Shown: one piece after another, positions 3,841 to 24,155 of the stretch
How positions within the stretch are numbered: position 1 is the first letter of the stretch
Layout of the letters: the number at the start of each line of letters is the position of its first letter
Assembly: GCA_017416805.1 (NCBI GenBank)
Contig: JAFQBB010000015.1
Coordinates: 1-34,925 of the forward strand
Source: Bacteroidaceae bacterium
Lineage (GTDB): Bacteria > Bacteroidota > Bacteroidia > Bacteroidales > Bacteroidaceae
Reading direction: 5' to 3'
DNA: 34,925 nt
Notes under the pieces: generated by a model
Seen by the model: only the letters and a program-made list of their open reading frames with translations
What the model was told of the DNA's origin: nothing
Database searches by the model: none
Program-made: the position numbers and the translations under genes

Positions 3841-3870
3841 CAAGCCCTGTTCAACCTCAACTATAAGTAG

Positions 3871-5584: not shown

Positions 5585-5608
5585 ACAACAAACATATTTT
5601 TAAGAAAG

Positions 5609-5680: not shown

Positions 5681-5693
5681 GAAAAAAATAAGT

Positions 5694-5701
5694 TATCTTT
5701 G
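5694..5701 (+). promoter_or_regulatory. -7 element for pyrK-pyrD (TATCTTTG)
   Basis: TATCTTTG matches TAnnTTTG and lies 32 bases before the pyrK ATG. The -33 region falls inside the right arm of the preceding inverted repeat and has no clean TTTG. Confidence 0.5.
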
Positions 5702-5733
5702 CACCAAAGATAAACAATCACCTTAATTATATA

Positions 5734-6510
5734 ATGAAAAAATATATTTTAGACCTGACCGTCACGGAGAACACGAAGTTGCACGATAGCTACGTATTGC
5801 TAAAATTGACACACTCCGAGGCGTTGCCCGAGATGCTACCAGGACAGTTTGCAGAGATTCGTGTGGACAACTCGCCCACCACTTTCTTGCGTCGTCCTAT
5901 TTCCATCAACTACGTGGATACAGAAAAGAATGAAGTGTGGTTCCTTGTCCGCCTGGCAGGAGATGGCACACGCAAGTTGGCAACCGTAAACGTGGGCGAC
6001 ACAGTGAATGTGGTACTCCCCTTAGGAAACGGCTTCACTATGCCGACAAACAGCACACAACGTCCGCTGCTCATCGGTGGTGGTGTAGGTACCGCCCCAC
6101 TTCTTTATTTCGGTAAGAAACTACAGGAAATAGGCATACGGCCTACATTCTTATTAGGTGCCCGTTCTGCTAAAGATTTGCTGCAACTGGATGAATTCAA
6201 GCAACTTGGCGATGTATATTGCACCACCGAAGATGGTTCAATGGGCGAAAAAGGCTTTGTCACCCAACATACGGTATTGAGCGAAAAACAATTCGACAGC
6301 ATCCATACCTGTGGTCCCAAGCCCATGATGGTGTCAGTTGCCCGCTATGCCAAACAAAGCGGCATTGAGTGCGAAGTTTCGCTGGAAAACACCATGGCTT
6401 GCGGCGTAGGCGCTTGTCTCTGTTGTGTGGAAAACACCGACGAAGGCCACGTGTGTGTATGTAAAGAGGGTCCCGTATTTAATATCAAGAAACTATTATG
6501 GCAGATTTAA
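5734..6510 (+). CDS. pyrK: Dihydroorotate dehydrogenase B, electron transfer subunit
   Basis: PyrK carries FAD and a [2Fe-2S] cluster and passes electrons from the PyrD active site to NAD+ in pyrimidine synthesis. The 258 residues show the ferredoxin-reductase order. A beta-barrel FAD domain contains [10 protein letters not shown] nucleotide-binding domain has [12 protein letters not shown] and HTCGPKPMM. The C-terminal cluster ligands lie in [12 protein letters not shown] followed by [11 protein letters not shown]. All four expected cysteines are present. Its stop overlaps the start of pyrD by 13 bases, indicating translational coupling of the two subunits. Confidence 0.93.
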
Positions 6511-7409
6511 GCGTAAACATAGGAAACCTGAACCTGAAGAACCCCGTCATGACGGCTTCAGGCACATTCGGATATGGAATAGAGTTTGAGGATTTTGTTG
6601 ACCTTGAGCAGATTGGCGGTATCATCGTAAAGGGAACCACCCTCAATCATCGCGAAGGAAATCCCTATCCGCGCATGGCAGAGACTCCTTCTGGCATGTT
6701 GAATGCCGTAGGCTTGCAGAATAAAGGCGTAGATTACTTTGTGGAGAAAATCTATCCGAAAATCAAGGATATCAATACCAATATGATTGTCAACGTATCA
6801 GGCTCAGACATTGAGTCTTACGTAAAAACAGCCGAACGCATTAACGAGTTGGAGAACATCCCAGCCATCGAGTTGAACATCTCTTGTCCCAACGTAAAAC
6901 AAGGTGGCATGGCCTTCGGAGTGACCCCTGATGGTGCCGCAGAAGTGGTAAGTGCCGTACGCAAAGCATACGACAAAACATTGATTGTGAAACTTTCGCC
7001 CAACGTGACAAACATAGCCGAGATTGCCCGTGCCGTAGAGGCTGCCGGAGCTGATAGCGTATCGCTTATCAATACCCTTTTGGGTATGGCCATCGATGCA
7101 GAGAAACGCAAACCGATCCTTTCTACCATTACAGGCGGTATGAGCGGAGCTGCCGTGAAACCCATTGCCCTGCGCATGGTATGGCAAGTGGCTCAGGCGG
7201 TGAAAATTCCTGTTATCGGATTGGGAGGCATCATGAACTGGCGCGATGCCGTTGAGTTCCTTCTTGCCGGTGCTACCGCCATCCAGATTGGCACAGCAAA
7301 CTTTATCGATCCGGCTATCACCGTGAAAGTGGCTCAAGGTATTGATGACTACCTGAATCGCCACAACTTCGCATCAGTGAAGGATATTATCGGCGGATTG
7401 GAAGTGTAA
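6498..7409 (+). CDS. pyrD: Dihydroorotate dehydrogenase B, catalytic subunit
   Basis: The 303-residue FMN-dependent TIM barrel is predicted to oxidise dihydroorotate to orotate with PyrK. Class 1B features are visible: [10 protein letters not shown] near the N-terminus and [12 protein letters not shown], where Cys130 is the expected catalytic base. Other features are IVKLSPNVT and phosphate-binding segments near [20 protein letters not shown]. The start overlaps the end of pyrK, and ATGGCAGATTTAAG also encodes the last PyrK residues. The next gene is convergent trmD, separated by a nested inverted-repeat region. Confidence 0.94.
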
Positions 7410-7596: not shown

Positions 7597-8283
7597 TTAC
7601 CACCCACTTCCCTCCAACAAATCGGGGCGAAGTTGCTTGGTGCGCTCAATGGCTTGCTGCATTTCCCAGTCACGAATGTTGGCTTCGTGACCGGAAAGAA
7701 GCACATCGGGCACACGCCAACCTTTGTATTCAGCCGGACGGGTATAGACGGGCGGCGCCAACAAATTGTCTTGGAAAGAATCTGACAAAGCTGACTGCTC
7801 GTCAGAAATGACTCCAGGGATGATACGGACAATAGAATCAGCAATTACGGCAGCGGCCAATTCACCACCCGTAAGGACATAATCACCAATACTGATTTCT
7901 TTCGTTATCAGATGCTCACGGATGCGGAAATCAATACCCTTGAAATGTCCGCATAAAATGATAAGATTTTGTGAGAGGGAAAGTGTGTTTGCCATCCGTT
8001 GGTTGAACTGTTCGCCATCGGGCGAAGTGAAGATGACTTCATCATATTCACGCTGCTCCTTCAACATCGAGATGCAACGGTCAATCGGCTCAATCTGCAT
8101 CACCATGCCGGCACATCCGCCATACGGATAATCATCCACGCGACGATGCTTATCGAGAGTATATTCGCGAAGGTGGTGCAAATGGATTTCTGCCAATCCT
8201 TTCTTCTGCGCCCGGCTCATAATGGAACAATTGAAGAACCCTTCAATCATTTCGGGCAATACAGTTATGATATCTATACGCAT
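7597..8283 (-). CDS. trmD: tRNA (guanine-N1)-methyltransferase
   Basis: TrmD uses S-adenosylmethionine to methylate G37 next to the anticodon, which prevents frameshifting. The 228-residue length is normal. The start [17 protein letters not shown] and the following [12 protein letters not shown] are typical. The [21 protein letters not shown] loop region is present. The deep trefoil-knot signature is [19 protein letters not shown], followed by [13 protein letters not shown] in the C-terminal domain. Transcription converges with pyrD. A -7-like TACTTTTG on the minus strand at 8310-8317 may be its promoter. Confidence 0.94.
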
Positions 8284-8761
8284 AATTTGTCGTTTTTCCT
8301 AATTGGTTGCAAAAGTACAAAAAAAGTATGGGATTCATGCCTGATGTAAAGGAAAACAAATATGCAATCTAACTATAGAACAATTTGCTTTTTCACTACA
8401 AATACCCCAATATACCTCTCCAAATAACACGATATTCATTAAAATAAGGAAACATATCGAAAGAACAATGAAACATTTATGAAATCAGAGATAAATTTGC
8501 TGTCCAATAGTCTCATGCAAGCATTGTCAAATACGATTTTTCTATCAAACTGACAAACAAATATTTATAATAAATCTATAAAATAACAAACAACTTATTC
8601 AGATAAAAATAAATATTGATTTCTTATATACAATACTTTTAATTTACACCAATATAGAATATCTGTTTTAATGATTATAACAAGCTATAATAGCATAAAC
8701 AACTATACAAATGGCAAATATAAAGTCCTCTGAAAGTGATTCATTTTTACATCCTTCTTTA
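8284..8761. other. AT-rich divergent gap between trmD and ligA
   Basis: The stretch holds the trmD -7 element (complement of CAAAAGTA at 8310-8317). I see no convincing gene, RNA or repeat in the rest. It is markedly AT-rich. Confidence 0.5.
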
Positions 8762-8793
8762 TTTGGACATCTGAGGAATATATACTACCTTTG
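8762..8793 (+). promoter_or_regulatory. Promoter of ligA
   Basis: TTTG at 8762-8765, 20 bases, then TACCTTTG at 8786-8793 matches the Bacteroidetes consensus exactly. The transcript should start near 8800, giving a very short leader before the ATG at 8811. Confidence 0.75.
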
Positions 8794-8810
8794 CCTGAAA
8801 ATAAAGTCTT

Positions 8811-10823
8811 ATGAATACCATCCAACAACAGATAGAGACCCTGCGGGCAGAACTGCACCGCCACAATCATAATTACTACGTGCTGAATGCACCGGAGATA
8901 ACGGACTTTGAGTTTGACCGCATGATGCGCGAGTTGCAGGACTTGGAGCAGGCACATCCGGAGTTTTATGACGAAAACTCGCCCACCATGCGCGTAGGCA
9001 GCGACTTGAGCAAGGTATTCAGTCAAGTGACGCACAAGTACCCCATGCTCTCCCTCGGAAACACCTATTCGGAAGGTGAAGTGAGCGATTTCTACGAGCG
9101 TGCACGCAAGATGCTGGGCGAAGAGGAGTTCGAAATCTGTTGCGAGATGAAATACGACGGCACCTCCATCTCTCTGACTTATGAGAATGGCCTGCTGGTA
9201 AGCGCCGTGACACGTGGCGACGGAGTAAAGGGCGACGATGTGACGGACAACGTGAAGACCATCCGCACCATCCCCTTGAAATTGCAAGGGACTGATTATC
9301 CAATGAATTTTGAAATCCGTGGTGAGATACTGATGCCTTGGAATGTATTTGAGAAGTTGAACGAAGAGCGTGCCGCCAACGAAGAACCCCTCTTTGCCAA
9401 TCCACGCAACGCGGCCTCTGGCACGCTAAAGCTACAGAATTCATCGGTGGTGGCCAGCCGTAAACTGGATGCTTACCTCTATTATATGCTGGGCGAAGAA
9501 CTCCCCTGCGACGGACACTACGAGAATTTGCAGAAGGCTCGCGAATGGGGATTCAAGATTTCTGACGCCACACGCAAAGTCCGCACCTTGCAAGAGGTGT
9601 TCGACTTCATCCGTTATTGGGATACCGAACGTAAGAATCTGCCTGTAGCCACTGATGGAATTGTATTGAAGATCAACTCGCTACGTCAGCAGAAAAACCT
9701 CGGATATACGGCCAAGTCGCCTCGTTGGGCCATTGCCTACAAGTTTCAAGCCGAACGGGCTTGCACCCGACTGAACAGCATCAGCTATCAGGTGGGACGC
9801 ACCGGTGCCATTACTCCCGTGGCCAATCTCGATCCGGTGCAACTATCGGGCACTGTGGTCAAACGTGCTTCGCTCCACAATGCCGACATCATCGAGGGGC
9901 TCGACCTCCACATCGGTGATATGGTGTATGTGGAAAAGGGAGGTGAAATCATCCCTAAGATTACAGGAGTGGACAAAGAGGCCCGCTTCATGGTGGGCGA
10001 CAAGGTGCAGTTCATCACCCGTTGTCCCGAATGCGGCACTCCGCTGATGCGCAACGAAGACGAAGCGGCCCACTATTGCCCCAACGACAAAGCCTGTCCA
10101 CCACAGATAAAGGGAAAAATCGAGCACTTCATCACCCGTAAAGCCATGAATATTGACGGCATGGGTCCCGAAACGGTAGAGCAATTCTACAATGTGGGAC
10201 TCATCAAAAACATTGCCGACCTGTACGACCTGCATGCCACTGACCTGCAACTACTTGAACGCATGGGCGAACGCTCGGCAAACAATATCATAGAGGGCAT
10301 CCGCAAATCCACAGAAGTACCTTACCCACGCGTGCTTTTCGCCCTCGGTATCCGCTATGTAGGCGAAACGGTGGCTAAGAAGCTGGCCAATGCCTTTCCC
10401 ACGATTGACCAACTGAAGGAGGCCACACTGGACGACCTCATCCACGTGGATGAAATAGGTGAACGCATTGCCCAAAGTGTCATCCGCTGGTTTGCCGATG
10501 AAGACAACCTGCAACTGATTGAACGTCTGAAAGCTGCCGGACTCCAGTTTGAACTGAGCGAAGAGGTGTTGAGCGAGCGCACCGACCGTTTGGCAGGCAA
10601 GAGCATCGTCATCAGCGGTGTGTTTACCCACCATTCGCGCGACGAATACAAAGCCTTGATAGAGAAGCACGGAGGAAAGAACGTAGGAAGCATCTCCGGC
10701 AAGACATCCTTCATCCTCGCCGGTGAAAACATGGGCCCCAGCAAATTGGAGAAAGCCACCAAACTGGGCGTGGCCATCGTCAACGAAGAGGAGTTCTTGG
10801 GGATGATTGAAGGGGGGAAATAA
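8811..10823 (+). CDS. ligA: NAD-dependent DNA ligase
   Basis: LigA seals nicks, including those between Okazaki fragments, using NAD+. The 670-residue length is standard. The N-terminal Ia domain has [19 protein letters not shown]. The adenylation domain has the active-site Lys114 in CEMKYDG, then MNFEIRGEI and TDGIVLKI. The OB fold follows ([22 protein letters not shown]). A four-cysteine zinc site has CPECG and CPNDKACP. Helix-hairpin-helix repeats ([27 protein letters not shown]) and a C-terminal BRCT domain (about 590-670) complete it. All domains are intact. The two genes that follow are accessory and much more AT-rich. Confidence 0.96.
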
Positions 10824-11267: not shown

Positions 11268-12317
11268 ATGGAAAAATGGAATGAAATCTGTTCAGACTTT
11301 ATAGAATGTCAGAAAAACAATGTTTCGGAAAGAAGATTTCAAGATACAGTATGTTGGACATTACGCTCATTGGGGTGGCTTAAGAACGAAATCAAGCAAC
11401 AACTAAAAGTGGATTTAGGAGCTGCCCAAAGAGTTTTTCCTGATATAGTTTTGGAAATAGATTCTATTCCTCAAATAATAATAGAATTAAAAAAGCCAAC
11501 ACACAATTTCCGTGAAAGAGATAGCATACAATTAATTACCTATATGAAGCAATTAATTTGTTCCATAGGGTTCTATATTGGTGAAAACATTCAAATATAC
11601 TATTACAATAAAACAGAAGAACCACAATTAGTATCGACATTGCCTTATGAAACCAACTCTGAAATGGGACTTTGTTTTGTTGAATTAATGAAACGTTCTA
11701 TTTTCGATGTTAGAAAATGGGAAAATTATTGCTTAACACAGATAGAACAACGAAAGCAGGAAGAAGATATAGAAACAACCGTCAACAACTTAGTATCTGA
11801 CAATGGAAAAGCAGTTTTGTATAACCTCTTACGAACTAAATTAGGTGCAGACGGACATCAAGAAGATTCAATTGATTCCATACTGAATCGAATAGATATT
11901 ATTTTAGTTGACAAAAGTTCCAAAGATATTATAACTGTACAAGAATCTCACTCTAATATTTTAAAAGAGGATAAAATAAATCACTCAAAATCAAGTATAA
12001 AGAAAAGAATTTACTATTCATTAAACGGAAATGGAAGATTCTGCAAGAGAGAACTTGCTCTATCCATCGCCAAATTATATGTAAAGGAACATCCACATCT
12101 AACGTTTTCTGAGATTGAGACACGATTACCTGGTAGGATTTATCGAAAGGAAAGATTCGGAGAAGTCCGTTGTTTCAAAGAGGAGTCCCAATTGATGAAA
12201 AGCGCAGACGGTATCATATTTGCTTTAACAGACCAATGGGGTAAAGGATGTCCATTTGATAGTGATGAAATGATTCGCTTTGCTAAAAGAAATGGATATA
12301 AAATTGAAGAACTATAA
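11268..12317 (+). CDS. PD-(D/E)XK nuclease-like protein with HsdR-type N-terminus
   Basis: The 349-residue product begins with a restriction-type nuclease domain (about 1-150). The start helix SERRFQDTVCWTLRSLGWL supports this. So does the catalytic core, where VFPDIVLEID gives the Asp and IIIELKKP gives E-x-K, followed by QLITYMKQL. The middle (150-240) is helical. The last 100 residues form a separate basic module starting KKRIYYSLNGNGRFCKRELA. It contains HLTFSEIETRLPGRIY and a final DQWGKG segment, and resembles a winged-helix-like specificity or DNA-binding module. No methyltransferase or helicase is adjacent. The AT-rich composition and pairing with the preceding unknown gene suggest an acquired defence or restriction-like function, which is an inference. 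Confidence 0.7.
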   Translation: MEKWNEICSDFIECQKNNVSERRFQDTVCWTLRSLGWLKNEIKQQLKVDLGAAQRVFPDIVLEIDSIPQIIIELKKPTHNFRERDSIQLITYMKQLICSIGFYIGENIQIYYYNKTEEPQLVSTLPYETNSEMGLCFVELMKRSIFDVRKWENYCLTQIEQRKQEEDIETTVNNLVSDNGKAVLYNLLRTKLGADGHQEDSIDSILNRIDIILVDKSSKDIITVQESHSNILKEDKINHSKSSIKKRIYYSLNGNGRFCKRELALSIAKLYVKEHPHLTFSEIETRLPGRIYRKERFGEVRCFKEESQLMKSADGIIFALTDQWGKGCPFDSDEMIRFAKRNGYKIEEL

Positions 12318-12344
12318 CCCATACCGCAATAAAATACCATTCAA

Positions 12345-12419
12345 CTACCCCTTATATGCTTCATCAGCCCACGCTTTTGCTACAATCTTGGCATAAAGCC
12401 TCTTTTTCTGTTCTTTCAT
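12345..12419 (-). CDS. 24-residue peptide resembling a nitrile-hydratase-type leader (possible remnant)
   Basis: A minus-strand ATG at 12417-12419 opens a 24-codon frame ending in TAG at 12345. Residues 12-24, IVAKAWADEAYKG, resemble the conserved start of nitrile-hydratase-like leader peptides (NHLP), which precede the core of some ribosomally made, modified peptides. Family members usually continue with a LLxDP-type segment, which is absent because the stop follows directly. It may therefore be a truncated precursor, a gene fragment or a coincidence. No maturation enzymes are visible in this window. No clear promoter or ribosome-binding site was found. Confidence 0.35.
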   Translation of the reverse strand: MKEQKKRLYAKIVAKAWADEAYKG

Positions 12420-12454
12420 AAGACTTCTTATTTTTTTCAACTTTCGCAAGTAGA

Positions 12455-12630
12455 ATTTATGGAGATAAAGGAAGATTTATGGAGATAAAGGGAGATAAAG
12501 GCCGAATGTTTTGCTATACTATGATTCGCCAAAGGCTCATCGAAAACTTCTTTTGATTGTTTCATTAAGGTATGGTGGCCTTTATCTTCCCAAGAGCGAA
12601 GCGATATCTCCCTTTAACTCCTTTATTTAC
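12455..12630. repeat. GGAGATAAAGG iterated repeat with inverted copies
   Basis: GGAGATAAAGG occurs at 12461, 12481 and 12491. Inverted relatives follow at 12577-12591 (GGCCTTTATCTTCCC) and 12605-12615 (TATCTCCCTTT). GATAAAGGCC at 12494-12503 can pair with GGCCTTTATC at 12577-12586. The element lies in the convergent gap between the PD-(D/E)XK gene and the permease operon, and may end both transcripts. Confidence 0.6.
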
Positions 12631-12666
12631 ACGAAAGCCAAAGCTTGCGAAACTTAAATTATTTTA

Positions 12667-13959
12667 CTATATAAACACATATTTTAATATAAACAATACG
12701 GCTAACACATACATGGTGGGAGAAAGTTTTCTGAAGTTTCCGCAACAGACATTCAGCAGAACATAGCAGATGATACTCAACAGAATACCATCGGAAATGG
12801 AATAAGCCAATGGGATAACAATGATGCAGACAAAAGCAGGAATGGACTCCGTGTAGTCAGAAAAGTTAATCTTGCGTACAGGCTCCAGCATAAACAGACC
12901 TACGATAACCAACACTGGTGCTGTGGCTGCCGATGGGATGGACAGGAATAACGGAGAAAAGAACAAAGATATACCGAAACAACAAGCAATCACGAAAGCA
13001 GTCAGCCCTGAACGTCCGCCAATGGCCACACCCGAAGCACTCTCCACGTATGTTGTTGTGGTACATGTACCCAAGCAAGCACCTGCCGTCGTAGCCACAG
13101 CATCGGCCATAAAAGCCTCATTGATGCGACTGATGCTGCCATCCTTGTTGACCATCCCCGACTTGGTACATACCCCGACGATGGAACCTACCGTGTCGAA
13201 CAAATCCATGAAAAGCATGGTAAACACCACCACCAGCATGTCAAATGTAAAGATGTTCTCCCACTGGAACTGGCAGAAAATGGCTCCGATGGAATGCGGT
13301 TGGGAGAAAACTCCTTTAAACTCGGTTATTCCCACAGGAATACCAATGAGTGTAATCGCCAAGACACCAATCAACATGGCTCCTGGAATATTCCGGAAAT
13401 GAAGTGTACCAATAATCATCAATCCTATTATCGCCAAAAGCGGTGCACCCGAAGTAACGTCGCCTAACGAAATGAGAGTGGCATTATCTGCCACCACTAT
13501 TCCTGCATTCTGCAACCCGATAAAAGCGATGAACAGACCAATACCTCCACCGATAGCATAACGCAAGTTCAGCGGAATGGCATTGACTATAGCTTCGCGG
13601 ACTTTAGTCACCGTCAATAAAATGAACAATAACCCTTCGATGAACACAGCCGTCAAGGCAAACTGCCAAGGATAACCCATACCAAGACATACCGTATAGA
13701 CAAAGAAAGCGTTCAGCCCCATACCTGGAGCCAAGCCAAAAGGCAATTTAGCCACAAAGGCCATAACCAAAGTACCGATAATGGCCGCAAGTGCTGTAGC
13801 CGTGAACGATGCTCCCACGGGCATCCCCTCCAACACACTGAACATGCCGGGATTGACTGCCAGAATATACGACATGGTGAGGAAAGTGGTAATACCTGCC
13901 AATACTTCTGTACGCACAGAAGTTTCCTTTGGATTGAATCCGAATAGCTTTGTCAACAT
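12667..13959 (-). CDS. NCS2-family guanine/hypoxanthine permease (AzgA/PbuG type)
   Basis: The 430-residue inner-membrane protein has about 12-14 hydrophobic segments. It opens with MLTKLFGFNPKETSVRTE, the usual cytoplasmic start of the AzgA/PbuG branch. The substrate-path motifs FGLAPGMGLNAFFVYTVCLGMGY and MDLFDTVGSIVGV are intact, as is the later VESASGVAIGGRSG. The branch imports guanine, hypoxanthine or adenine by proton symport. It lies 9 bases after the STAS gene and is probably the last gene of the eight-gene operon. The nucleoside-hydrolase-like gene at the other end fits purine recovery. The exact base transported cannot be read from the sequence. Confidence 0.88.
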   Translation of the reverse strand: MLTKLFGFNPKETSVRTEVLAGITTFLTMSYILAVNPGMFSVLEGMPVGASFTATALAAIIGTLVMAFVAKLPFGLAPGMGLNAFFVYTVCLGMGYPWQFALTAVFIEGLLFILLTVTKVREAIVNAIPLNLRYAIGGGIGLFIAFIGLQNAGIVVADNATLISLGDVTSGAPLLAIIGLMIIGTLHFRNIPGAMLIGVLAITLIGIPVGITEFKGVFSQPHSIGAIFCQFQWENIFTFDMLVVVFTMLFMDLFDTVGSIVGVCTKSGMVNKDGSISRINEAFMADAVATTAGACLGTCTTTTYVESASGVAIGGRSGLTAFVIACCFGISLFFSPLFLSIPSAATAPVLVIVGLFMLEPVRKINFSDYTESIPAFVCIIVIPLAYSISDGILLSIICYVLLNVCCGNFRKLSPTMYVLAVLFILKYVFI

Positions 13960-13968
13960 AAGCCAATC

Positions 13969-14271
13969 TTATTGAATAGTAAGAATGCGTGAAAAGCCTG
14001 TCAACTCAAATACTGAACGAACTTCTGCTGTAAGGTGTCTCAATATGAACTTTCCACCTTTAGCTGTCACCATTTTATGAGTACTGAGAATGATACGCAG
14101 GCCTGAACTGCTGACATATTCCAACTTTTCGCAATCAAATACCAAAGTAATGCCTGCCTCGTTCCACAAAGGAGAAACCTGTTCATGCAATTCCGGGGCT
14201 GTTACTGTATCAACTCTACCTTCAATCATCACCACAGTTTCTGTGGTCTCTTTTAAAATTTTCACTTCCAT
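13969..14271 (-). CDS. STAS-domain anti-sigma-factor antagonist (SpoIIAA/RsbV-like)
   Basis: This 100-residue protein is a single STAS domain, the phosphorylatable partner in partner-switching systems. The order is standard: strand VVMIEGRVDTVTAPELHEQV, strand ITLVFDCEKLEYV, the phospho-site segment SSSGLRIIL, and GGKFILRHLTAEVRSVFELTGF. By position, Ser56 corresponds to the serine phosphorylated in SpoIIAA. The gene follows that of the RsbW-like protein by 31 bases and the SpoIIE-type phosphatase gene is just upstream, so kinase, phosphatase and substrate are encoded together. What the antagonist controls is unknown, because no sigma factor is nearby. Confidence 0.88.
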   Translation of the reverse strand: MEVKILKETTETVVMIEGRVDTVTAPELHEQVSPLWNEAGITLVFDCEKLEYVSSSGLRIILSTHKMVTAKGGKFILRHLTAEVRSVFELTGFSRILTIQ

Positions 14272-14302
14272 AATCTTTGCTTTTTAATATGTAATGATTT
14301 AT

Positions 14303-14710
14303 TTATAAATCTTTGCCTAACGTCAGCACATTTCTTCCATCAATACGTTGGTATTCAACCTGGTTCATTATTTGTCGGATTAGGAAGATTCCCAGTCCTC
14401 CAATCTGTCTGTCCTCTGCAGCGAGATTTACATCTGCATCCGGCATCTGAGTGGGGTCAAACTCCTTACCCGTATCAGTCAGGACGAAAAGTAACTGATT
14501 TTCTGTTTTCTTTGCCGTCAAAGAAATGTTCTCATGCTCCCCTTTGGGGTAAGCATACAAAATGACATTCGATACAGCCTCTTCCAATACCAGATTCAAA
14601 TTAAACACCAATTCTGGGGACAACCCGAGTTCTTCACCCAATTCATCAATAAAAAGGGCCAGTTTTGAAATTTCAGGAATTTCATTCTGCAAGACAAGAG
14701 TCTTTTCCAT
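14303..14710 (-). CDS. RsbW/SpoIIAB-like anti-sigma-type serine kinase
   Basis: The 135-residue protein is a GHKL ATPase domain of the anti-sigma-factor class (HATPase_c_2). The N-box is in NLVLEEAVSNVILYAYP, with Glu44 and Asn48. The G1 box is DTGKEFDP and the G2 box is GGLGIFLI. In known systems such proteins phosphorylate a STAS partner and hold a sigma factor or another target. All ATP-binding motifs are present, so it should be active. It lies between the phosphatase gene (17 bases) and the STAS gene (31 bases), in the usual partner-switch grouping. Confidence 0.88.
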   Translation of the reverse strand: MEKTLVLQNEIPEISKLALFIDELGEELGLSPELVFNLNLVLEEAVSNVILYAYPKGEHENISLTAKKTENQLLFVLTDTGKEFDPTQMPDADVNLAAEDRQIGGLGIFLIRQIMNQVEYQRIDGRNVLTLGKDL

Positions 14711-14727
14711 ATCTTTTACCTATGCTA

Positions 14728-16647
14728 TTATTTGTATTTCAAACACATGATTGTTATATCATCACTTTGTTCGGCACCTGCAGCATGACACACAATATCT
14801 TGAAAAACCTTTTCCACAAGCCCTGAAGGATGTTCATGTCGGTGCATAACCAGAAAATCCAAAAGGTGCTCATCGGAATAGAGCCGTTTCTCAATATTTT
14901 CAGCTTCTGTCACTCCATCTGTATAAAGGAACAGAGAATCACCCTTCATCAGTGTACATTCCTGACCGTCATAGGGGAACCCTTCAAACAGGCCCAAAGG
15001 CAAATTAGGAACCACTTCCATGAACTCTGTCTTTCCAGAGGCACGCATCACGACTGGAGCATTGTGTCCGGCATTGCAATACTGCATGTATCCCGTCTGC
15101 AAATCCAAAATACCCAAAAAGAAGGTACAGAACATGTTTGATTCATTATTCTCTGCCAATGTGTCGTTCAATGATGTAACTATTTCGGAAGGTTTCTGAA
15201 AATGAGATGCTACGGTACGGAACAGGCGGCAAGTCACAGCCATGACCAACGAAGCAGGGACTCCCTTGCCCGACACATCGCCCACAATGAAGTAAAGTTT
15301 GTTGTCCTCTATGAAGAAATCATACAGGTCACCACCAACTTCCTTAGCAGGAATCAGCTTGGCATATAAGTCCACATCCTCACGTTCGGGAAAGGCAGGA
15401 AAGATTTTCGGCACCATACCCATCTGTATCTCACGGGCAATACGCAGTTCGCTCTCTATACGCTCCTTTTTGGCTGTCGTATCTTTCAACTCATCAATAT
15501 AGGCCACCAATGATTGTTGCATGTGCTCAAACGAATCATGCAACTGTTTCATTTCATCCTGAGTATTGATAGTGGGCAATGATGTGGTAAAATTACCCTG
15601 TGCTATCTCCTTGGCAGAACCTGCAAAACGTGTCAATGGCGCGACCTGACGCCTTATCGTCATGTAACAGAACCCTGCCAACAACAAAAGTCCCAAAAAG
15701 CCAATAATAATAATTATATTGAGCAAACTGTCCACACCGGCAAATACGTCGGAGTGAAGACAAGCAACAGCCACCGACCATCCTGTACTCTTAACCGGAG
15801 CATAAAACATCGTCAATTCCGTCTTACTCTCGCCGAATGGCAACATTCCTCGTTCACCTGCCACCATTTGATGACCTAATTCTTTCAACTCCTCGCCATT
15901 TACCAGTTTGGAGGTTGCAAAGACAGTTTCGTTCAATATACACTCTTTGTTCCAATGTACCAAGAACTTTCCACCACGGCCAATCATCATATTGAAGGAA
16001 TTGGGATAAGGTTTGATAGCCTCAACCTTATCGGTAAACCATTCCAACGAAAGGTCGGCTGTAAAAATGGCATACAATTTTCCTGCTGAATCATACAAAG
16101 GATACGAATAAGTCGTCATAATCAAATCAGCACCACCATCATCGTAGTAAGGTTCGCTCCAATATGCCTTGCCCAACAACTTAGGAATCTGATACCAATC
16201 CATGTAATGATAATCATAATCCTTTGTACCCAACTGCTTGCTGTATATGTTATTGCCATCCCTGTAAGAATAGGGAGAAAACATCACACCTTTCTCCAGA
16301 TAGTAGGAAGGTTCAAAAGCTATGGCACATCCTACGACATGCGGATTGCTACGAAGCATTTGCTGAGTCAATACATACATGTAATCAGGTTGTTCCAACT
16401 TGTCTGCTACCAGCCACGAAAAATTCTGAACAGCAGTTTCCACAGAATTCAACACTTGGTCAATCTGCAGGATTGTGTTGTCCATCGCCACTTGCGCCCG
16501 TTCAATGGACTCCGCCTTGACTGACTTTCGGGCCGAATGGAAATAACTGAAAAAAGCCAAGACAAAAACCGGAACCGAAACACAGAGGATGTAAAGACTC
16601 AGACGGAAAGAAAATGAGCCTCTGATTTTCTTCATAAAGATGTTCAT
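14728..16647 (-). CDS. Cache-HAMP-SpoIIE/PP2C-type sensor phosphatase
   Basis: The 639-residue protein has one transmembrane helix near residues 12-32. An extracytoplasmic double-Cache-like sensor follows to about 295 (WYQIPKLLGKAYWSEPYYDDGG, MTTYSYPLY). A second helix (IIIIIGFLGLLLLAGFCYM) leads to a HAMP linker with APLTRFAGSAKEIAQGNF and a short coiled coil. The C-terminal phosphatase domain has GGDLYD at 438-443, GDVSGKGVPA, NAGH at 525-528, YTDGVTE at 575-581 and a final SDDITI, so the metal ligands are intact. It should dephosphorylate the STAS protein encoded two genes downstream in response to a periplasmic signal. Its start overlaps the NMT1-like gene by 4 bases, which may mean that this binding protein supplies the signal. 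Confidence 0.9.
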   Translation of the reverse strand: MNIFMKKIRGSFSFRLSLYILCVSVPVFVLAFFSYFHSARKSVKAESIERAQVAMDNTILQIDQVLNSVETAVQNFSWLVADKLEQPDYMYVLTQQMLRSNPHVVGCAIAFEPSYYLEKGVMFSPYSYRDGNNIYSKQLGTKDYDYHYMDWYQIPKLLGKAYWSEPYYDDGGADLIMTTYSYPLYDSAGKLYAIFTADLSLEWFTDKVEAIKPYPNSFNMMIGRGGKFLVHWNKECILNETVFATSKLVNGEELKELGHQMVAGERGMLPFGESKTELTMFYAPVKSTGWSVAVACLHSDVFAGVDSLLNIIIIIGFLGLLLLAGFCYMTIRRQVAPLTRFAGSAKEIAQGNFTTSLPTINTQDEMKQLHDSFEHMQQSLVAYIDELKDTTAKKERIESELRIAREIQMGMVPKIFPAFPEREDVDLYAKLIPAKEVGGDLYDFFIEDNKLYFIVGDVSGKGVPASLVMAVTCRLFRTVASHFQKPSEIVTSLNDTLAENNESNMFCTFFLGILDLQTGYMQYCNAGHNAPVVMRASGKTEFMEVVPNLPLGLFEGFPYDGQECTLMKGDSLFLYTDGVTEAENIEKRLYSDEHLLDFLVMHRHEHPSGLVEKVFQDIVCHAAGAEQSDDITIMCLKYK

Positions 16648-17591
16648 TTCTTGCCCCCTTTCACTCTTTCATAAGAAACAGGGTTTTGAATACGGTTATG
16701 TTTCATCAACAAGCCACACAGCCTTTCAACATCTTCCCGTTCCAATTTGAATGATGGCACGTCTTCACCCTCTTTGCATTGCAAGCGGAAAATCTCTTCC
16801 AACATCCATTTTTGATGAATACGATTTGTGTGTACATGTTCCTTGGTTACCAACTCCATAACTATATCCAGCGTTTCTTCGGGGTGACTACGAGCATATT
16901 CCCAACCTCGACGTGAAGCCTCAGCAAAAGCCTCTGCCTTTTCCGGATAACGTTGGTAAAAATCAGCTGAAACATACACTCCATCTTCCGGATAATCATA
17001 ATCGGAATCAGAAAAGCGAAGAACAGGTTTGTCTCCATGACCTGATGCCACAATCTGCAAATATTCATTGTAACTCATAGCCAAAGTAGCATCTATTGCT
17101 CCTGAGATGTACAGATTCGTCCCTTCCAAAAAGGGAATCCAACGAATGCCTAATCCAAGTTCGTTGTCTGCAATATAGCCAAAATCACCAAAACCCACTT
17201 TCCAAACACCCACTTTCTTGCCCTTCAAATCCTGAAAAGTACGAATGCTGTCTGTCCGAGAGACTATCAGCAAAGCATTCCGTTGCGATGTTTGCAGAAT
17301 GTTGACCAAAGGAATTTTCCTGTCAATCTCCACCATAGCAGGTAAAAGTTGCATGGTTATCACATTACTGCGTCCTTCCAGCAGGCGGTTCAGAGCCGGG
17401 TCTGAAGTGGATGGATGCTGTATATCCACATCCAGACCTGCATCCTTATAAAAGCCTTTCTTTTGAGCCACATAATACCCTGCAAATTGAGCTTGGGGTG
17501 TCCATTGGGGAGTAAAGACAATGCGTTGCCCATACATCCATAGTGAAAACAGGGAGGCAAACAACAATCCAATACGTCGTTTTAGTGTCAT
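16644..17591 (-). CDS. NMT1/THI5-like periplasmic substrate-binding protein
   Basis: The 315-residue product has an N-terminal signal peptide ending near WMYGQ, then the THI5/NMT1 pattern. [23 protein letters not shown] opens lobe one. Further features are [35 protein letters not shown] and [14 protein letters not shown]. Relatives bind thiamine-precursor pyrimidines, sulfonates or related small molecules. No matching SsuC/ThiX-type permease gene is present; the only permease in the operon is the HisM-type one fused to its own binding domain. It overlaps the upstream ATPase gene and the downstream phosphatase gene by 4 bases each. A sensory role for the phosphatase is therefore as likely as transport. 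Confidence 0.85.
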
Positions 17592-18697
17592 ATCTTCGCC
17601 AATTCAAATTGTACACGCACACGGGGACCTTCAGGATAATCCTCTACCACCTCAGTCATTGCGCTACACAAACCTTCAACAATGCTCATACTCAGTTCGT
17701 CAGGCTGGCGACTTTTATCCTTCAACACGGAAACAATACCGACGGGCATCAGCAATTCCAATGAAACAGTCTCGTTCTTTTCCGAATAGCGGAGGGCCAA
17801 ATCCACTTCACCTTTGTCCAACGGGACGAGCTGAAGCACCTCTTCGGTAAGCAGCTGTACACGGAATTGAACGGGTTGTGACAAGAAGTAACGCTGACAG
17901 AACTGCATCATGCCTGCCTGCAACTGGTAGAGGTCATACTTAGGTGAGTGGATGGAATAGCAATAATCACGAATGCGGTTGATGAACACGCGAGTACGCT
18001 CTTTTTGCGGATGTTCAAAAATCTCTTCTGGAGTACCTTCCTCATAAACAATACCTTGATCCATGTAGAATATACGAGTGCTGACATCGCGTGCAAAACG
18101 CATCTCGTGGGTCACAATAACCATTGTCATCCCTTGCTGTGCCAAGCTACGGATAACACCCAGCACTTCACTCACCATCGTAGGGTCAAGCGCAGAAGTT
18201 GGCTCGTCAAACAAGATAATTTCAGGTTCCATAGACAAGCAACGGGCAATGGCGATGCGTTGTTTTTGGCCGCCCGACAATTGGGAGGGCATGGCTTTTG
18301 CCTTTTCGGCCAATCCCACCATTTCCAGCAATTCTATGGCACGCTGTTCAGCCTCCTTGCGCGACTTGCCCAACAATTTTACGGGACCAATGCACAAATT
18401 GTCCATGATGGACATGTGGTTGAACAGATTGAAGTTCTGGAACACCATGCCCATCTTCTGTCTCAAATGAGGCACATTTGTTTTGGACGACATCAAATCC
18501 TGACCATCCACAACAATGCTTCCACCCGAAGGACGTTCAAGCAGATTCAAACACCGCAAGAACGTGCTTTTACCCGTCCCTGAAGGACCGATAATGGAAA
18601 TAACTTCTCCCTTTTGGATAGTGGCGTTCACATCGCGCAACACTTCCAATCCGTTACTGTATGTTTTCTTCAAATGAGTAACCTGTATCATAATCAA
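17588..18697 (-). CDS. Polar-amino-acid-type ABC transporter ATPase with extra C-terminal domain
   Basis: Residues 1-240 are a complete GlnQ/HisP-type ATPase: Walker [10 protein letters not shown] (37-45), Gln87, signature LSGGQKQR (140-147), Walker B ILFDEP (161-166) and the switch His197. The family ends near 245, but this protein runs to 369. The extra 125 residues look like a degenerate GHKL/anti-sigma fold: a helix with [10 protein letters not shown], strands GEVDLALRY and [10 protein letters not shown], a helix with [15 protein letters not shown], and a last strand VRVQFEL. The Asn and glycine ATP motifs are missing. The protein should power the fused permease encoded just upstream (4-base overlap). 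The tail may link transport to the partner-switch proteins, which is an inference. Confidence 0.88.
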
Positions 18698-20190
18698 CGT
18701 GCTTTTTTACCGATAAAATCAAGAACTGACGCAAATATCCATGCCAAGATGAAATAGAGCAATGCCACCATCAGCAACGGGAAAAAGGCATCGAATGTAC
18801 GCGAACGGATGATGTCGCTGACCTTGGTCAAGTCCTGCACAGCTATGTAACCGACAATGGAAGTCATCTTTATCAACGAAATCAATTCTCCCTTATAAAC
18901 AGGCAACACCTGCTTGAAGGCTTGCGGCATTACAATGTGGAAGAAGGTCTGCACAGGTGTAAAGCCCAATGCCACACCAGCCTCGGCCTGTCCACGGTCC
19001 ACACTCTCGATAGAGCTGCGGAACATTTCGCTGACGTAAGCCGCAAAATTCATGCCGAAAGTGATAATAGAAACTGTCACGGCATCAATGGTAGTCCCGG
19101 CAAACACCACATAGAACATCAGCATCAGCAACACCAATACAGGAGTGCCTCGCATGACACTGATATACAAACTTGCTACGCTCCTGAGTGACGCATGACG
19201 GCTCATACGCATCCAGCATACTATGGCACCAAGCAAGGTTCCCAACAATGCGGCCAAAAGGGAAATAAGAGCTGTCAGTTTCAAGCCATTCCATATCATC
19301 AGATAACGGTCTTCTTCGATGACGTTCAGGTAAAAGCTATCCTTCACCCCTTGAAGGATTCCTTTGCCGCCCACATTGGTTTCCGCAGCCTGCTTGGCGG
19401 AGTTCTCGGCACGGATACCAATCAACGAACCGCACTCAAAATAGGGGTCACTGAAATCGATGGCCTCAGCACGGGCAGGAGTGATATTCACCGCCGCCAC
19501 TATCATGTCGTGCTTTCCGCTAATCAATGCGGGAATAACTGAAGCGAAGTTCATGTCGCTCCACTCGATGGGGCGTCCTACATACTGGGCAAAGCGTGTG
19601 GCCAACTCGATGTCAAACCCCACCAACTTACCATTCCTGATGAAATCCAACGGAGGGGATGTAGAGCAGGTTGCAATACGGATTGGTTCGGCATCCTGTG
19701 GCAAGGGGATGTCGGGCATTTCCGCCTCGTTGGCATGATACATCCAACGGTCATAAATCTCATCATACGTTCCGTCTGCTTTGATTTTTGCCAAAAAATC
19801 GTTGAATTTCAAGCGCAACTCCACATTCTTGTTTTTCCCGAAGCAGAATCCCATGGTGGCCGTAACCAAGGGTTTTTCAAGATAATCCAACCCCTTTACG
19901 GTTTGCGAATGGTAGAGGAAGATGTAGTCGTCCAACACCACAGCCTCGCAACGCTTGGTGGCCAAGGCTTGCACCACATCGGCGGCATTGTCGATACGCA
20001 ACACTTCCACTTCGGGATATTCCTTCTCGATGATAGCTTCCTGGAAGCATCCCGTCAGTGCAGCCACCTTCCGCCCGTTCAAGTCGTCCAGCGTGCGGTA
20101 CACTGGCAATTGCTCCGCCTCCTGCTTTGCACCACAAGCGGCAAGCATACAAAGGAGCAAACATACAAATGGTTTTGTGATTCCTTTCAT
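18694..20190 (-). CDS. Lipoprotein substrate-binding domain fused to HisM-type ABC permease
   Basis: The 498-residue protein begins with a lipoprotein signal (LAAC, Cys19). Residues about 30-150 match the second half of an SBP_bac_3 binding protein: [23 protein letters not shown], and the family's usual C-terminal ending [12 protein letters not shown]. Residues 165-265 match the first half: [28 protein letters not shown], and DFSDPYF from 245. The two halves are thus in swapped order. From about 295 comes an integral-membrane permease domain with about five helices and the EAA-type loop [10 protein letters not shown]...IVMPQAFK. It should import a polar amino acid or similar solute with the ATPase encoded next, whose start overlaps its end by 4 bases. 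Confidence 0.88.
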
Positions 20191-20240
20191 GTCAATAAAA
20201 TATCTTTCTATGTACTCTTTTATTCTCTGTTCCGTCTGCT

Positions 20241-21275
20241 TTACCTACGGCTACTATTCCTTATTTTCTGCAACATCATCTGATTCCATTCGGTTGAGCC
20301 GGGTAGTTGATAACGGCAGTTACCCTTCGTGGAGGGAGTAAAGATGGTTTCTGCCTGTGGAGTGATGGAGACGTATCCACGTCCGGAGAGTGTAAACAAA
20401 GTGTCGCCCTCTACGGCGTGAATCACGGCCAAGGGGTCCCACATCTTTTGCCCCGTATTGCAATCGTAGTTCAGATAGACTTGGCGGATAGGATGATGTT
20501 CGTCCCACGCATAGTCGGCAATCACCTGATTAACCGGATATTCGACACCATCGCCCACTTCGCCCGGAGAGAAGAGCATATCCACCTCCATGGGCCACAG
20601 TTGGAAGAATGTCTGTGCAAAATCAAGCCCCTGACCAAAATTATAATCCGGTTCAATGGCTTTTCCGAACACGCCACCCATCACATAGATGGCCTTCACC
20701 TTGCGACGTACCAGCTCAATGCCATTCAATGAAGAATATTCATCAGCCTCAGATTGCAACAATTGAGCCAAAGCCGTGACAAAACCAACGGAACAGATAG
20801 AGACTGAATGGTCAGGTTCAGCAGCCAACAGGCGACGATAGAGTTTCCATCCATCGGGGAGCGCTTCGTAATCCGTCAATGCACGTTGAAACATAGGTTT
20901 CCCGTCCGTAGCAGAAAGGGTGGGAAGGAGGCTGTAGTCAATCCAGACGGAAGGATTCTCAATACCTTCGCGCACCAATCCTACAGGCACTTCGGAGTGT
21001 CCATAATAGGTGTTCATAATGTCCGCTACCTCGGCACCTGCCACCCCTTCACGGTCAACAACCACCCCCAACAAACGGCACATGGCGGAATCGGCATACT
21101 TATAGAGCATCTGCAAGGCAAACAGGTCGTCTGTGGATGAGGGTATATCCACATCAAGAATAATCGCAGGGATGTCCGGACAAACCATTTCATTGTCTTC
21201 CGAAGTGCTTCCCATCAAGACACTGCTACACATTGCTACAATAGCGACAGACAGGAGTTTTAACGTCGTTTTCAT
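20241..21275 (-). CDS. Secreted nucleoside-hydrolase-like protein
   Basis: The 344-residue product has a signal peptide (MKTTLKLLSVAIVAMCSSVL). The Asp-rich loop of nucleoside hydrolases follows in altered form: LDVDIPSSTDDLFAL instead of the canonical DTDPGxDDA. Other family marks are present: YVMGGVFG, EPDYNFGQGLDFAQ at the nucleoside-binding Glu/Asn site, and MWDPLAVIHA near the end. The fold is therefore clear, but the calcium-binding Asp spacing is changed, so activity is not assured. The likely role is releasing a base or handling a ribosyl compound in the periplasm. It is 50 bases upstream of the fusion gene and is probably the first gene of the operon that ends with a purine permease. 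Confidence 0.8.
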   Translation of the reverse strand: MKTTLKLLSVAIVAMCSSVLMGSTSEDNEMVCPDIPAIILDVDIPSSTDDLFALQMLYKYADSAMCRLLGVVVDREGVAGAEVADIMNTYYGHSEVPVGLVREGIENPSVWIDYSLLPTLSATDGKPMFQRALTDYEALPDGWKLYRRLLAAEPDHSVSICSVGFVTALAQLLQSEADEYSSLNGIELVRRKVKAIYVMGGVFGKAIEPDYNFGQGLDFAQTFFQLWPMEVDMLFSPGEVGDGVEYPVNQVIADYAWDEHHPIRQVYLNYDCNTGQKMWDPLAVIHAVEGDTLFTLSGRGYVSITPQAETIFTPSTKGNCRYQLPGSTEWNQMMLQKIRNSSRR

Positions 21276-21321
21276 AGTCTTTTGATAGTATTACAAAAGG
21301 TATATTGTCTGAATAACGGTG

Positions 21322-21350
21322 CAAATGTAGTAAAAGATTTGAATAATCAA
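21322..21350 (-). promoter_or_regulatory. Likely promoter of the eight-gene operon
   Basis: On the minus strand TACATTTG (complement of 21322-21329) matches TAnnTTTG, with TTG (21348-21350) 18 bases upstream as a short -33 box. It would start transcription about 40 bases before the nucleoside-hydrolase-like gene. Confidence 0.5.
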
Positions 21351-21439
21351 GGCTTCAAGGAGAAAAATATTAAAGGAGGTTCTACAAATCAGCTTCCGGA
21401 CTTATTCTCATAATTGACAGGAATTTCCTTTTGCCGTCT

Positions 21440-21508
21440 CTGCCAACCCGTGTTGGCAGTACTCTGCCAGCAACTTGGCAGTCTTCTGCCACTATGGAGG
21501 CAGTAGGC
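21440..21508. repeat. TGCCA...TGGCAG iterated palindrome, three units
   Basis: CTGCCA followed by TTGGCAG (or GAGGCAG) recurs three times, with TGCCA at 21441, 21465 and 21487, a spacing of 24 and 22 bp. Each unit is a small dyad. It lies in the divergent gap between the operon promoter and dapA, with no gene over it. Confidence 0.75.
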
Positions 21509-21626
21509 CTCATCCATAAACAAGGGCAGATACATCCCTGTCATGTATAGCATTCAATTGCTCTCAAAATTGCAATAAAGTCGATAATTTGTCAAGCAAA
21601 ATGCTGTGTTTACCGAATTTATTTTG

Positions 21627-21634
21627 TAATTTTG
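21627..21634 (+). promoter_or_regulatory. -7 element for dapA (TAATTTTG)
   Basis: TAATTTTG matches TAnnTTTG and lies 44 bases before the dapA ATG. The -33 position has only a weak TGTG. Confidence 0.5.
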
Positions 21635-21678
21635 CGGCCAATTAGTTTAAAATTGAAACGAAAGAAAACGTTATCTAT

Positions 21679-22572
21679 ATGATATACCATAAATTCAAAG
21701 GAATGGGCGTGGCCCTTATCACTCCGTTTAAGGAAGATGGCTCGGTGGATTATCCGGCCTTGATGCGCATGGTGGACCACTTGGTGCAGAATGGTGCAGA
21801 CTTCCTGTGTGTACTGGGTACCACGGCCGAAACCCCGACACTGACAACGGAAGAGAAACGAGAGATTACCCGCCTGGTTGTGGAGCGTGTGAACGGACGC
21901 ATCCCCATCATGCTGGGTTGCGGAGGAAACAATACACAAGCCGTCATTGATTCGTTGAAAAACGATGATTTCACCGGCATCGATGCCATCCTTTCCGTAG
22001 TACCTTATTATAATAAACCCTCGCAAGAAGGCATCTACCAGCACTATAAGGCCATCGCTGAATCGACCGACCTGCCCATCGTGCTCTACAACGTACCGGG
22101 ACGTACGGGCGTGAACATGACGGCAGAGACAACCTTGCGCATTGCACGCGACTTCAAGAACGTCATCGCCATCAAGGAGGCTTCGGGCAACATCACGCAG
22201 ATGGACGACATCATCAAGAACAAGCCGGAGAACTTCGACGTCATCTCTGGCGACGACGGCATCACCTTCCCGCTCATCACATTGGGTGCCGTGGGAGTCA
22301 TCTCGGTTATCGGAAATGCCTTCCCCAAGGAGTTCAGCCGCATGACCCGTCTGGCTCTGCAGGGCGACTATGCCAATGCCTTGAAGATTCACCACAGTTT
22401 CACCGAACTGTTCAGCCTCCTTTTCGTGGATGGCAATCCTGCCGGTGTGAAGGCCATGCTCAATGCCATGGGCATGATTGAGAACCGTCTGCGCCTGCCG
22501 TTGGTGCCCACACGCATCACCACCTTTGAAAAGATGCGCCAGATATTGCAAGAACTGCACATAAAGTATTGA
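21679..22572 (+). CDS. dapA: 4-hydroxy-tetrahydrodipicolinate synthase
   Basis: DapA condenses pyruvate with aspartate semialdehyde, the first committed step toward lysine and diaminopimelate for the cell wall. The 297-residue TIM barrel is of normal length. Catalytic residues are visible: the Schiff-base Lys166 in VIAIKEASGN, Tyr137 in YNVPGRTGVN, and the CVLGTTAETPTL substrate loop near residue 50. It appears to be a single-gene unit. A perfect 16-bp inverted repeat 20 bases after the stop is a likely terminator. Confidence 0.94.
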   Translation: MIYHKFKGMGVALITPFKEDGSVDYPALMRMVDHLVQNGADFLCVLGTTAETPTLTTEEKREITRLVVERVNGRIPIMLGCGGNNTQAVIDSLKNDDFTGIDAILSVVPYYNKPSQEGIYQHYKAIAESTDLPIVLYNVPGRTGVNMTAETTLRIARDFKNVIAIKEASGNITQMDDIIKNKPENFDVISGDDGITFPLITLGAVGVISVIGNAFPKEFSRMTRLALQGDYANALKIHHSFTELFSLLFVDGNPAGVKAMLNAMGMIENRLRLPLVPTRITTFEKMRQILQELHIKY

Positions 22573-23973: not shown

Positions 23974-23977
23974 CTTG

Positions 23978-24051
23978 TGACTCCGACAGGATTCAAACCT
24001 GTAACCTTCTGATCCGTAGTCAGATGCTCTATTCAGTTGAGCTACGGAGCC
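23978..24051 (-). tRNA. tRNA-Arg (anticodon ACG), distal copy
   Basis: On the minus strand the acceptor stem GGCTCCG pairs with CGGAGTC, with discriminator A. The anticodon stem TCTGA/TCAGA closes the loop CTACGGA, giving anticodon ACG (inosine-modified, reading CGU/CGC/CGA). The T arm contains GGTTTGAATCC. CCA is not encoded. It is identical in sequence to the next copy. Confidence 0.95.
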
Positions 24052-24081
24052 AAATGTCAAACAAATATTTATGAAGTATCG

Positions 24082-24155
24082 TGACTCCGACAGGATTCAA
24101 ACCTGTAACCTTCTGATCCGTAGTCAGATGCTCTATTCAGTTGAGCTACGGAGCC
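24082..24155 (-). tRNA. tRNA-Arg (anticodon ACG), proximal copy
   Basis: This is a second 74-base copy, identical to the one at 23978-24051, with a 30-base spacer between them. It is the first gene after the promoter at 24185-24216, so both should come from one transcript. Confidence 0.95.

Follow-up and report, generated by a model that had tools for sequence, protein, structure and literature searches.

The operon

Eight genes on the minus strand of a 34,925-nucleotide stretch of a Bacteroidaceae genome (contig JAFQBB010000015.1 of assembly GCA_017416805.1; the whole stretch is referred to as the window) join an ABC importer to a complete SpoIIE/RsbW/STAS switch. Partner switching of this kind is known chiefly for the control of sigma factors, with a few other outputs. 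Here, the importer ATPase ends in a degenerate kinase domain of the RsbW type. Because this domain sits on an importer beside a complete switch, and because similar domains are found on unrelated transporters in distant bacteria, the locus suggests that a switch known mainly from gene control may in bacteria act directly on transporters, turning them on and off. The features are listed in order of transcription.

20241-21275, minus strand: nucleoside-hydrolase-like protein P0008, a peripheral member (Pfam IU_nuc_hydro, marginal at 34.4 bits against a cut-off of 34.2)
18694-20190, minus strand: P0007, two SBP_bac_3 domains fused to a polar-amino-acid-type ABC permease in a GlnPQ-like layout (Pfam, NCBIfam)
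17588-18697, minus strand: ABC ATPase P0006, with the two domains that follow
17984-18697, minus strand: ABC nucleotide-binding domain of P0006, EhuA/GlnQ-like (Pfam ABC_tran, 5e-38)
17600-17974, minus strand: pseudo-RsbW (degenerate GHKL) domain at the P0006 C terminus, about residues 242-366, the proposed STAS dock (hhalign, AF2, Foldseek/VIA)
16644-17591, minus strand: NMT1/THI5-like periplasmic binding protein P0005, the proposed ligand-binding partner of the sensor phosphatase (Pfam NMT1, 4.9e-33)
14728-16647, minus strand: sensor phosphatase P0004 with PDC/Cache, HAMP, and SpoIIE (PPM) domains, the last at 14734-15306 (Pfam, SpoIIE 2.8e-55)
14303-14710, minus strand: stand-alone RsbW-like serine kinase P0003 (HATPase_c_2, 4.6e-25)
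13969-14271, minus strand: stand-alone STAS protein P0002, with acceptor Ser55 at 14107-14109 (STAS, 1.5e-17)
12667-13959, minus strand: NCS2 (xanthine/uracil-type) permease P0001, without a GHKL tail (Xan_ur_permease, 9e-46)

An open reading frame check bore out the eight genes of the sequence-only reading, their common strand, and their three successive 4-base overlaps, the spacings being +50, -4, -4, -4, +17, +31, and +9 bases in transcription order. The ATPase frame starts at a TTG; if the ATG two codons downstream is used instead, the first overlap becomes a 2-base gap. The protein families named in that reading also stand, the nucleoside hydrolase marginally, with Pfam finding IU_nuc_hydro, two SBP_bac_3 and BPD_transp_1, ABC_tran, NMT1, PDC/Cache with HAMP and SpoIIE, HATPase_c_2, STAS, and Xan_ur_permease across the operon. 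As to whether the genes form one unit without an internal split, promoter-like and terminator-like patterns in 12300-21700 occur at chance level (21 against 17.2 +/- 4.1 and 9 against 8.4 +/- 2.7 in shuffled sequence), and the four TTTG-N18-22-TANNTTTG sites of the window all lie outside 12667-21275. These scans therefore give no argument for a split, and they do not prove a single transcript either.

No other locus showed all eight genes in exactly this order. The core consists of substrate-binding protein (SBP)-permease and tailed ATPase, with the phosphatase, kinase, and STAS genes linked to it in variable order or located elsewhere in the genome. The source genome (3.16 Mb in 64 contigs, 91% complete) yields a single SpoIIE match; likewise, only one RsbW-type match clears the family cut-off and only one STAS protein stands alone. 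All three belong to the operon. Two weaker RsbW-type matches fall in 336- and 387-aa frames, and the other STAS match is part of a 573-aa frame.

A degenerate kinase domain on the importer ATPase

The SBP_bac_3 domains, the matching permease, and the GlnQ/EhuA-type ATPase are all features of a polar amino acid (PAAT) ABC importer. The EhuA, TcyN, and GlnQ models of NCBIfam are the best for P0006, each below its cut-off, and no equivalog cut-off was reached for the importer among the matches listed. The Walker and DEPTSALDP columns of the ATPase are invariant or nearly so (n = 76 sequences). Of 100 tailed ATPases, 69 are immediately preceded by a permease gene, and another form, in which the ATPase is fused to the permease or lies in a frame longer than 700 aa, accounts for 18.

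What is the tail? It matches RsbW by hhalign (97%, E 1.1e-10), its AF2-predicted structure has a pLDDT of 93.8, and its top fold matches in Foldseek/VIA are UsfX, SpoIIAB, SiaB-SiaC, and RsbW entries. The fold is the Bergerat type in the form found in anti-sigma kinases (RsbW/SpoIIAB GHKL). Its placement came from fold comparison, since the tail profile found no PDB chain by sequence. In an alignment of 76 tails (P0006 and 75 others, with short, cut, or tail-less frames omitted), 70 have no Pfam match at E 0.01. The ATP site is degenerate throughout this set: the N-box Asn is found in 5 tails and the G1 Asp in none, and of the lid glycines one is kept in 1 tail and the other in 0, with gaps in 75 and 71 tails at these columns. 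P0006 itself has L, M, and gaps at the ATP-site positions, with the ATP lid, N-box Asn, and G1 Asp all lost. Given the loss of the Asn, the Asp, and the lid glycines, the tail is classed from its sequence as a pseudo-kinase and not an active kinase.

The switch and its sensor

The other RsbW-like protein of the operon has kept its ATP site. P0003, for which one solved relative was found by sequence (RsbW, 6m36/6m37), has intact N-box, G1, and G2 motifs (E44, N48, D79, G81, G104, G105, and G107), and the N-box Glu and Asn, DxG, and GGLG are retained in all 10 stand-alone RsbW proteins aligned on it. The SpoIIE domain of P0004 aligns with the solved Rv1364c and RssB structures, and SpoIIE structures are listed too. 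The acceptor of the STAS protein was originally given as Ser56; alignment with the acceptors of SpoIIAA (Ser58) and RsbV (Ser56) puts it at Ser55. This serine is kept in all 29 distinct small STAS proteins of these loci (30 rows, with the window's own protein entered twice), in the motif S-S-x-G-L-R or one near it. The occurrence of SSAGLR in 4hyl, another solved STAS protein, shows that a motif of this type is not private to the system. With a sensor PPM phosphatase, a GHKL kinase with its ATP motifs, and a STAS protein with its acceptor serine all present, the SpoIIE/RsbW/STAS module is, judging by its motifs, complete.

What does the NMT1-like protein do here? It had been counted with the uptake genes, which is probably wrong. 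All eight NMT1 genes found by profile (in the window and at L092, L095, L018, L019, L101, L103, and L205) directly adjoin the gene for a sensor phosphatase, and six overlap it; at L103 the neighbor is a Cache-HAMP frame, after which SpoIIE has a frame of its own. Four of these loci (L095, L101, L103, and L205) show no tailed ATPase. On these grounds NMT1 is assigned to the phosphatase, most likely as the ligand-binding partner of the sensor. A second uptake system was rejected on the same adjacency, there being no partner permease among the eight genes.

Linkage of tailed ATPases to switch genes

Is the association of tail and switch found beyond this operon? When STAS, SpoIIE, and stand-alone RsbW genes are counted as switch genes, 22 of 100 tailed ATPases (1197 kb) have one no more than 8 kb away, as against none of 55 tail-less ATPases (772 kb); within 3 kb, the counts are 18 and 0. 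Fisher p values, with the kinship of loci not corrected for, are 4.6e-5 at 8 kb and 3e-4 at 3 kb. The tailed set includes the ATPase of the window and holds 95 distinct sequences, for which p is 1.9e-5; L041 gives two of the 22, and short duplicates (L001, L082-L091, and L107-L111) are omitted. The tail-less controls are those 55 of 74 frames that pass a cut of 200 bits, 46 of them reaching at least 290 bits, and 48 were taken from genomes of CT loci, in control regions. In one control, L081, truncation by the contig end makes the absence of a tail uncertain. With all tail-less frames counted, the contrast is 22/100 against 1/74 (p 2.3e-5), the one being L103.

In a tree of 91 rows, the switch-linked rows are scattered across the main CT clades and come from Bacteroidota, Bacillota, Pseudomonadota, Chlorobiota, Lentisphaerota, and Actinomycetota, while ten tail-less controls group together (100/97). 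Synergistota are added by L211, which lies in the genome of L076 (Synergistales). Many of the locus records are metagenome bins.

The association can also be followed across whole genomes. In a set of 120 relatives, all 5 genomes with a tailed ATPase have the STAS type (profile A4, E <= 1e-15), as do 25/115 others (p 7e-4); for SpoIIE, the counts are 5/5 and 52/115 (p 0.02). G037, whose match is a phosphatase-RsbW fusion, was counted here as lacking a tailed ATPase; counted as tailed, it brings the STAS figures to 6/6 and 24/114 (p 1.6e-4). The STAS type is likewise present in 27 of 30 genomes of CT loci, several of which match through loci used to build the profile, and the match in G123 is weak (60 bits). 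In G148, which has no match to the STAS profile, Pfam STAS, SpoIIE, and tail-profile matches lie side by side on one contig. One genome, G062, has five ABC-sized tailed frames and a tailed MATE frame; its single SpoIIE match sits with NMT1 and the sole STAS match of this type.

Similar domains on other transporters

In 16 of the 30 genomes, frames of 557-671 aa match the tail profile as well. In one scan, all 10 such frames contained MatE (Pfam), 8 of them also HATPase_c_2, and further MatE frames are found besides. Switch genes lie within 8 kb of 5/16 tailed and 2/41 tail-less MATE genes (p 0.015) and within 3 kb of 5 and 1 (p 0.005), a count that covers L193-L252 and omits the tailed MATE neighbors of CT loci (L030, L031, L036, and L073). 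Two MATE clusters show the arrangement: STAS, RsbW, Cache-SpoIIE, GH3, and MATE-tail at L194, and SBP-permease, STAS, MATE-tail, Cache-SpoIIE, an unknown gene, and an RsbW-like gene at L201. The GH3-family gene of L194 (3841-5511) is flanked, on the same strand, by the switch phosphatase and the tailed MATE gene. At L204, a frame at 8088-9479 with an N-terminal HATPase_c_2 and a weak GNAT acetyltransferase match directly follows a tailed MATE gene.

Up to three further families carry such domains. An NCS2 permease with a tail occurs in Methylotenera (L208; tail-profile match and Pfam Xan_ur_permease). SDF symporters at L029 and L055 (Pfam), with similar frames at L057, have a copy at the N terminus; by hhalign, four of these copies match the ABC tails at 96.9% (E 1.3e-10) and RsbW at 93.7%. 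At L029, the gene for such a symporter (9098-10696) has its start inside the final four bases of a tailed ABC ATPase gene, and two tailed transporters from different families thus look co-transcribed. An EamA-like protein at L211 has a C-terminal domain that matches the ABC tails (93.8%, E 1.7e-7). Its cluster holds two STAS genes, the EamA-like-tail gene, Cache-SpoIIE, RsbW, a STAS-APH gene, three SBPs, a permease, and a tailed ATPase. Frames of about 370 to 463 aa with a STAS match recur; in the one at L211 (6108-7304), which lies inside the switch-transporter array, the remainder matches APH phosphotransferase.

The switch also adjoins transporters on which no pseudo-RsbW tail was detected, at L104, L105, L106, and L205. 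In two genomes of the same genus that lack a tailed ATPase, it flanks a CitMHS-type transporter (L105, by Pfam) and a frame matching it in length and place (L106); at L104 and L205 its neighbor is a Na/H exchanger frame with TrkA_C. In these clusters the Cache-SpoIIE-RsbW genes are fused, and a small STAS gene is present. ECF-like sigma frames occur near the L105 and L106 clusters.

How might the switch act on the importer?

Taken together, the locus is probably a partner-switching phosphorylation system with a transporter as its output instead of a sigma factor. The following sequence of events can be proposed. (i) The NMT1 protein, to go by its gene adjacency, would bind a periplasmic ligand and signal to the Cache domain of the phosphatase. 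(ii) The RsbW-like kinase, whose motifs are intact, would by homology phosphorylate Ser55 of the STAS protein, and the SpoIIE phosphatase would take the phosphate off when the sensor is active. (iii) The ATPase would offer a receiver in the form of its RsbW/SpoIIAB-type domain, whose lost ATP site is seen in the sequence profile and the predicted structure. (iv) Dephosphorylated STAS would quit the kinase and dock on the pseudo-kinase domain, so that both partners of the switch would be RsbW folds, one live and one dead. (v) Docking would alter the ATPase cycle and open or close the importer, with either sign conceivable. The fold, the lost ATP site, the intact switch motifs, and the linkage are direct findings, while docking, its direction, and the ligand belong to the model. 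The earlier suggestion that the switch may gate uptake has gained a physical basis in the pseudo-RsbW domain on the ABC ATPase, the linkage enriched in several phyla, and the similar domains on other transporters.

If the tail is a STAS receiver, transporter control would be fast, post-translational, and set by phosphorylation, and a domain at the end of ATPases that carries no Pfam label in most cases would have a use. With tails on MATE, NCS2, SDF, and EamA-like proteins as well, a single STAS protein would be able to reach several transporters. Slightly more likely than not is a general bacterial mechanism, in which the SpoIIE/RsbW/STAS phosphoswitch would directly gate membrane transport in as many as five unrelated families (PAAT ABC importers, MATE, NCS2, SDF, and EamA-like) through a pseudo-RsbW receiver, one STAS protein acting on many importers and exporters at once and without transcription.

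Could the kinase and STAS protein instead control an unlinked sigma factor, with the transporter merely co-transcribed with the sensor and the tail doing another job, such as holding the ATPase dimer together? Stand-alone STAS proteins do act on sigma factors in the systems covered by the available part of PMC8256260, and ECF-like sigma genes are present in 2 of 21 switch-linked CT loci (L012 and L029) and at L105 and L106. The remaining 19 have none, in a search that covered the ECF-like type, and Pfam finds no sigma factor among the eight operon genes, both searches covering linked genes. This explanation is unlikely, as it would leave unaccounted for the tail's own kinship to RsbW, the linkage contrast between tailed and tail-less ATPases (with or without the score cut-off), and the presence of such domains on MATE, SDF, NCS2, and EamA-like proteins. 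A sigma-factor output was judged unlikely, with no ECF-like sigma gene recurring at switch-linked loci.

A different role for the same fold has also to be weighed. RsbW-type kinases are dimers, and the tail, which has the RsbW fold, might be a dimerization partner that recruits the kinase to the transporter, with STAS releasing the kinase and not docking on the tail. At L002 the kinase gene does lie directly downstream of the tailed ATPase. At L018, L019, L020, and L093, however, it is the STAS gene, not the kinase gene, that follows, 13-88 bases downstream. Moreover, in the genome of L093 (G011), SBP-permease, ATPase, and STAS are on one contig, and the kinase is on another with NMT1 and the phosphatase (L095). 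Kinase recruitment thus appears improbable. Least probable is a tail that senses a nucleotide or metabolite by itself, without a protein partner, like the C-terminal regulatory domains of the ABC ATPases MetN and ModC: the tailed ATPases that lack a nearby switch gene and the two Akkermansia genomes that keep the tail without a matching STAS would fit it, but the tail specifically resembles STAS-binding kinases, and linkage to such kinases and their switch is enriched in two transporter families.

Several observations weigh against direct gating by STAS docking. No switch gene lies within 8 kb of 78 of the 100 tailed ATPases; some of these contigs are short, others long. The loci share ancestry, so the Fisher values overstate their independence. 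The clearest results against strict dependence of the tail on the STAS switch come from the Akkermansia genomes G120 and G121, which carry tailed ATPases and in which the STAS profile finds nothing; Pfam STAS matches there are limited to frames of 581-673 aa and one 187-aa frame (G120), and G121 has no SpoIIE match over the cut-off. Three Akkermansiaceae tails (L004, L005, and L008) have lost a conserved Glu-Glu, which is consistent with a lost partner, a post hoc explanation. The EamA-like tail, a single sequence, is a weaker case, matching the RsbW set at 1.2%. Although the lid glycines are kept in only 0 and 3 of 18 MATE tails, 10 of the 18 retain the ATP-site Asn and 12 the Asp, and some MATE tails may not be dead kinases. 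Finally, the tail-less ATPase of L103, which at 192 bits falls below the 200-bit cut, lies among switch genes at a locus fetched for its SpoIIE match.

At L103 (G084, 3297-6692), this tail-less ABC ATPase shares a cluster with a STAS-containing frame of 423 aa. On the opposite strand, 59 bases after the ATPase, comes a small STAS gene that belongs to the same type, and NMT1, Cache-SpoIIE, and RsbW are in the same locus. Here the switch might be coupled to an ABC system in a second way.

Comparison with known systems

Like RsbU/RsbW/RsbV and SpoIIE/SpoIIAB/SpoIIAA of Bacillus, the cassette has a PPM phosphatase, a GHKL serine kinase, and a STAS protein with an acceptor serine, which here lies in SSSGLR where SpoIIAA has DSSGLG and RsbV DSTGLG. 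Unlike them, it has no sigma factor, and its transporter ATPase bears a further RsbW domain, which is degenerate. In the portion available, a review devoted to stand-alone STAS proteins centers on sigma-factor control (PMC8256260), and the accessible text of a paper on STAS phosphatases has no word starting with "transport" (PMC11418112).

SiaABCD of Pseudomonas aeruginosa likewise combines a phosphatase, a kinase, and a switch protein with an output other than a sigma factor, and the tail has the SiaB-SiaC structure among its best matches by fold. That output is a diguanylate cyclase and not a transporter (PMC7647112, PMC8457831); Pfam finds no GGDEF domain among the eight operon proteins. 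Residues 308-636 of P0004 match the NCBIfam SiaA model at 56.6 bits, well below its 700-bit cut-off.

MlaFB is a case of direct action by a STAS protein on an ABC ATPase; here such contact is proposed, and the two are linked as genes. The C-terminal extension of MlaF is about 25 residues and not a GHKL domain (PMC7367683), compared with about 125 residues for the tail here. As far as the available sections of that account go, its authors mention neither a kinase nor a phosphatase, report that no further PDB entry combines a STAS with an ABC domain, and suggest possible phosphoregulation while leaving the question open (PMC7367683). A STAS receiver on the ATPase, if real, would bear on that question of whether phosphorylated STAS proteins regulate ABC transporters. 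GlnPQ-type importers have tandem substrate-binding domains joined to the permease as in this operon (PMC8025302); the pseudo-RsbW tail and the switch set the present system apart. Judged by titles and opening lines of abstracts, no paper on RsbW-like domains fused to transporters came up in literature searches that covered few subscription papers or preprints, which is weak evidence that such fusions are unpublished.

Peripheral and neighboring genes

The first and last genes of the operon appear to stand apart from the core. NCBIfam has no match for the nucleoside-hydrolase-like P0008, whose relatives are confined to L041 and L047 among the other annotated loci, and the NCS2 permease P0001 has relatives at none of them. 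The proposal that the switch responds to a nucleoside-related ligand is not borne out by this distribution, and a nucleoside-related operon as a conserved theme was rejected. P0001 is peripheral and possibly a second client of the switch. Clustering of neighbors over 81 loci yielded no unannotated cluster in more than five. In the window, a DHDPS-family gene at 21679-22572 on the plus strand is divergent from the first gene of the operon, and a pair of adjoining tRNA-Arg (acg) genes lies at 23977-24155.

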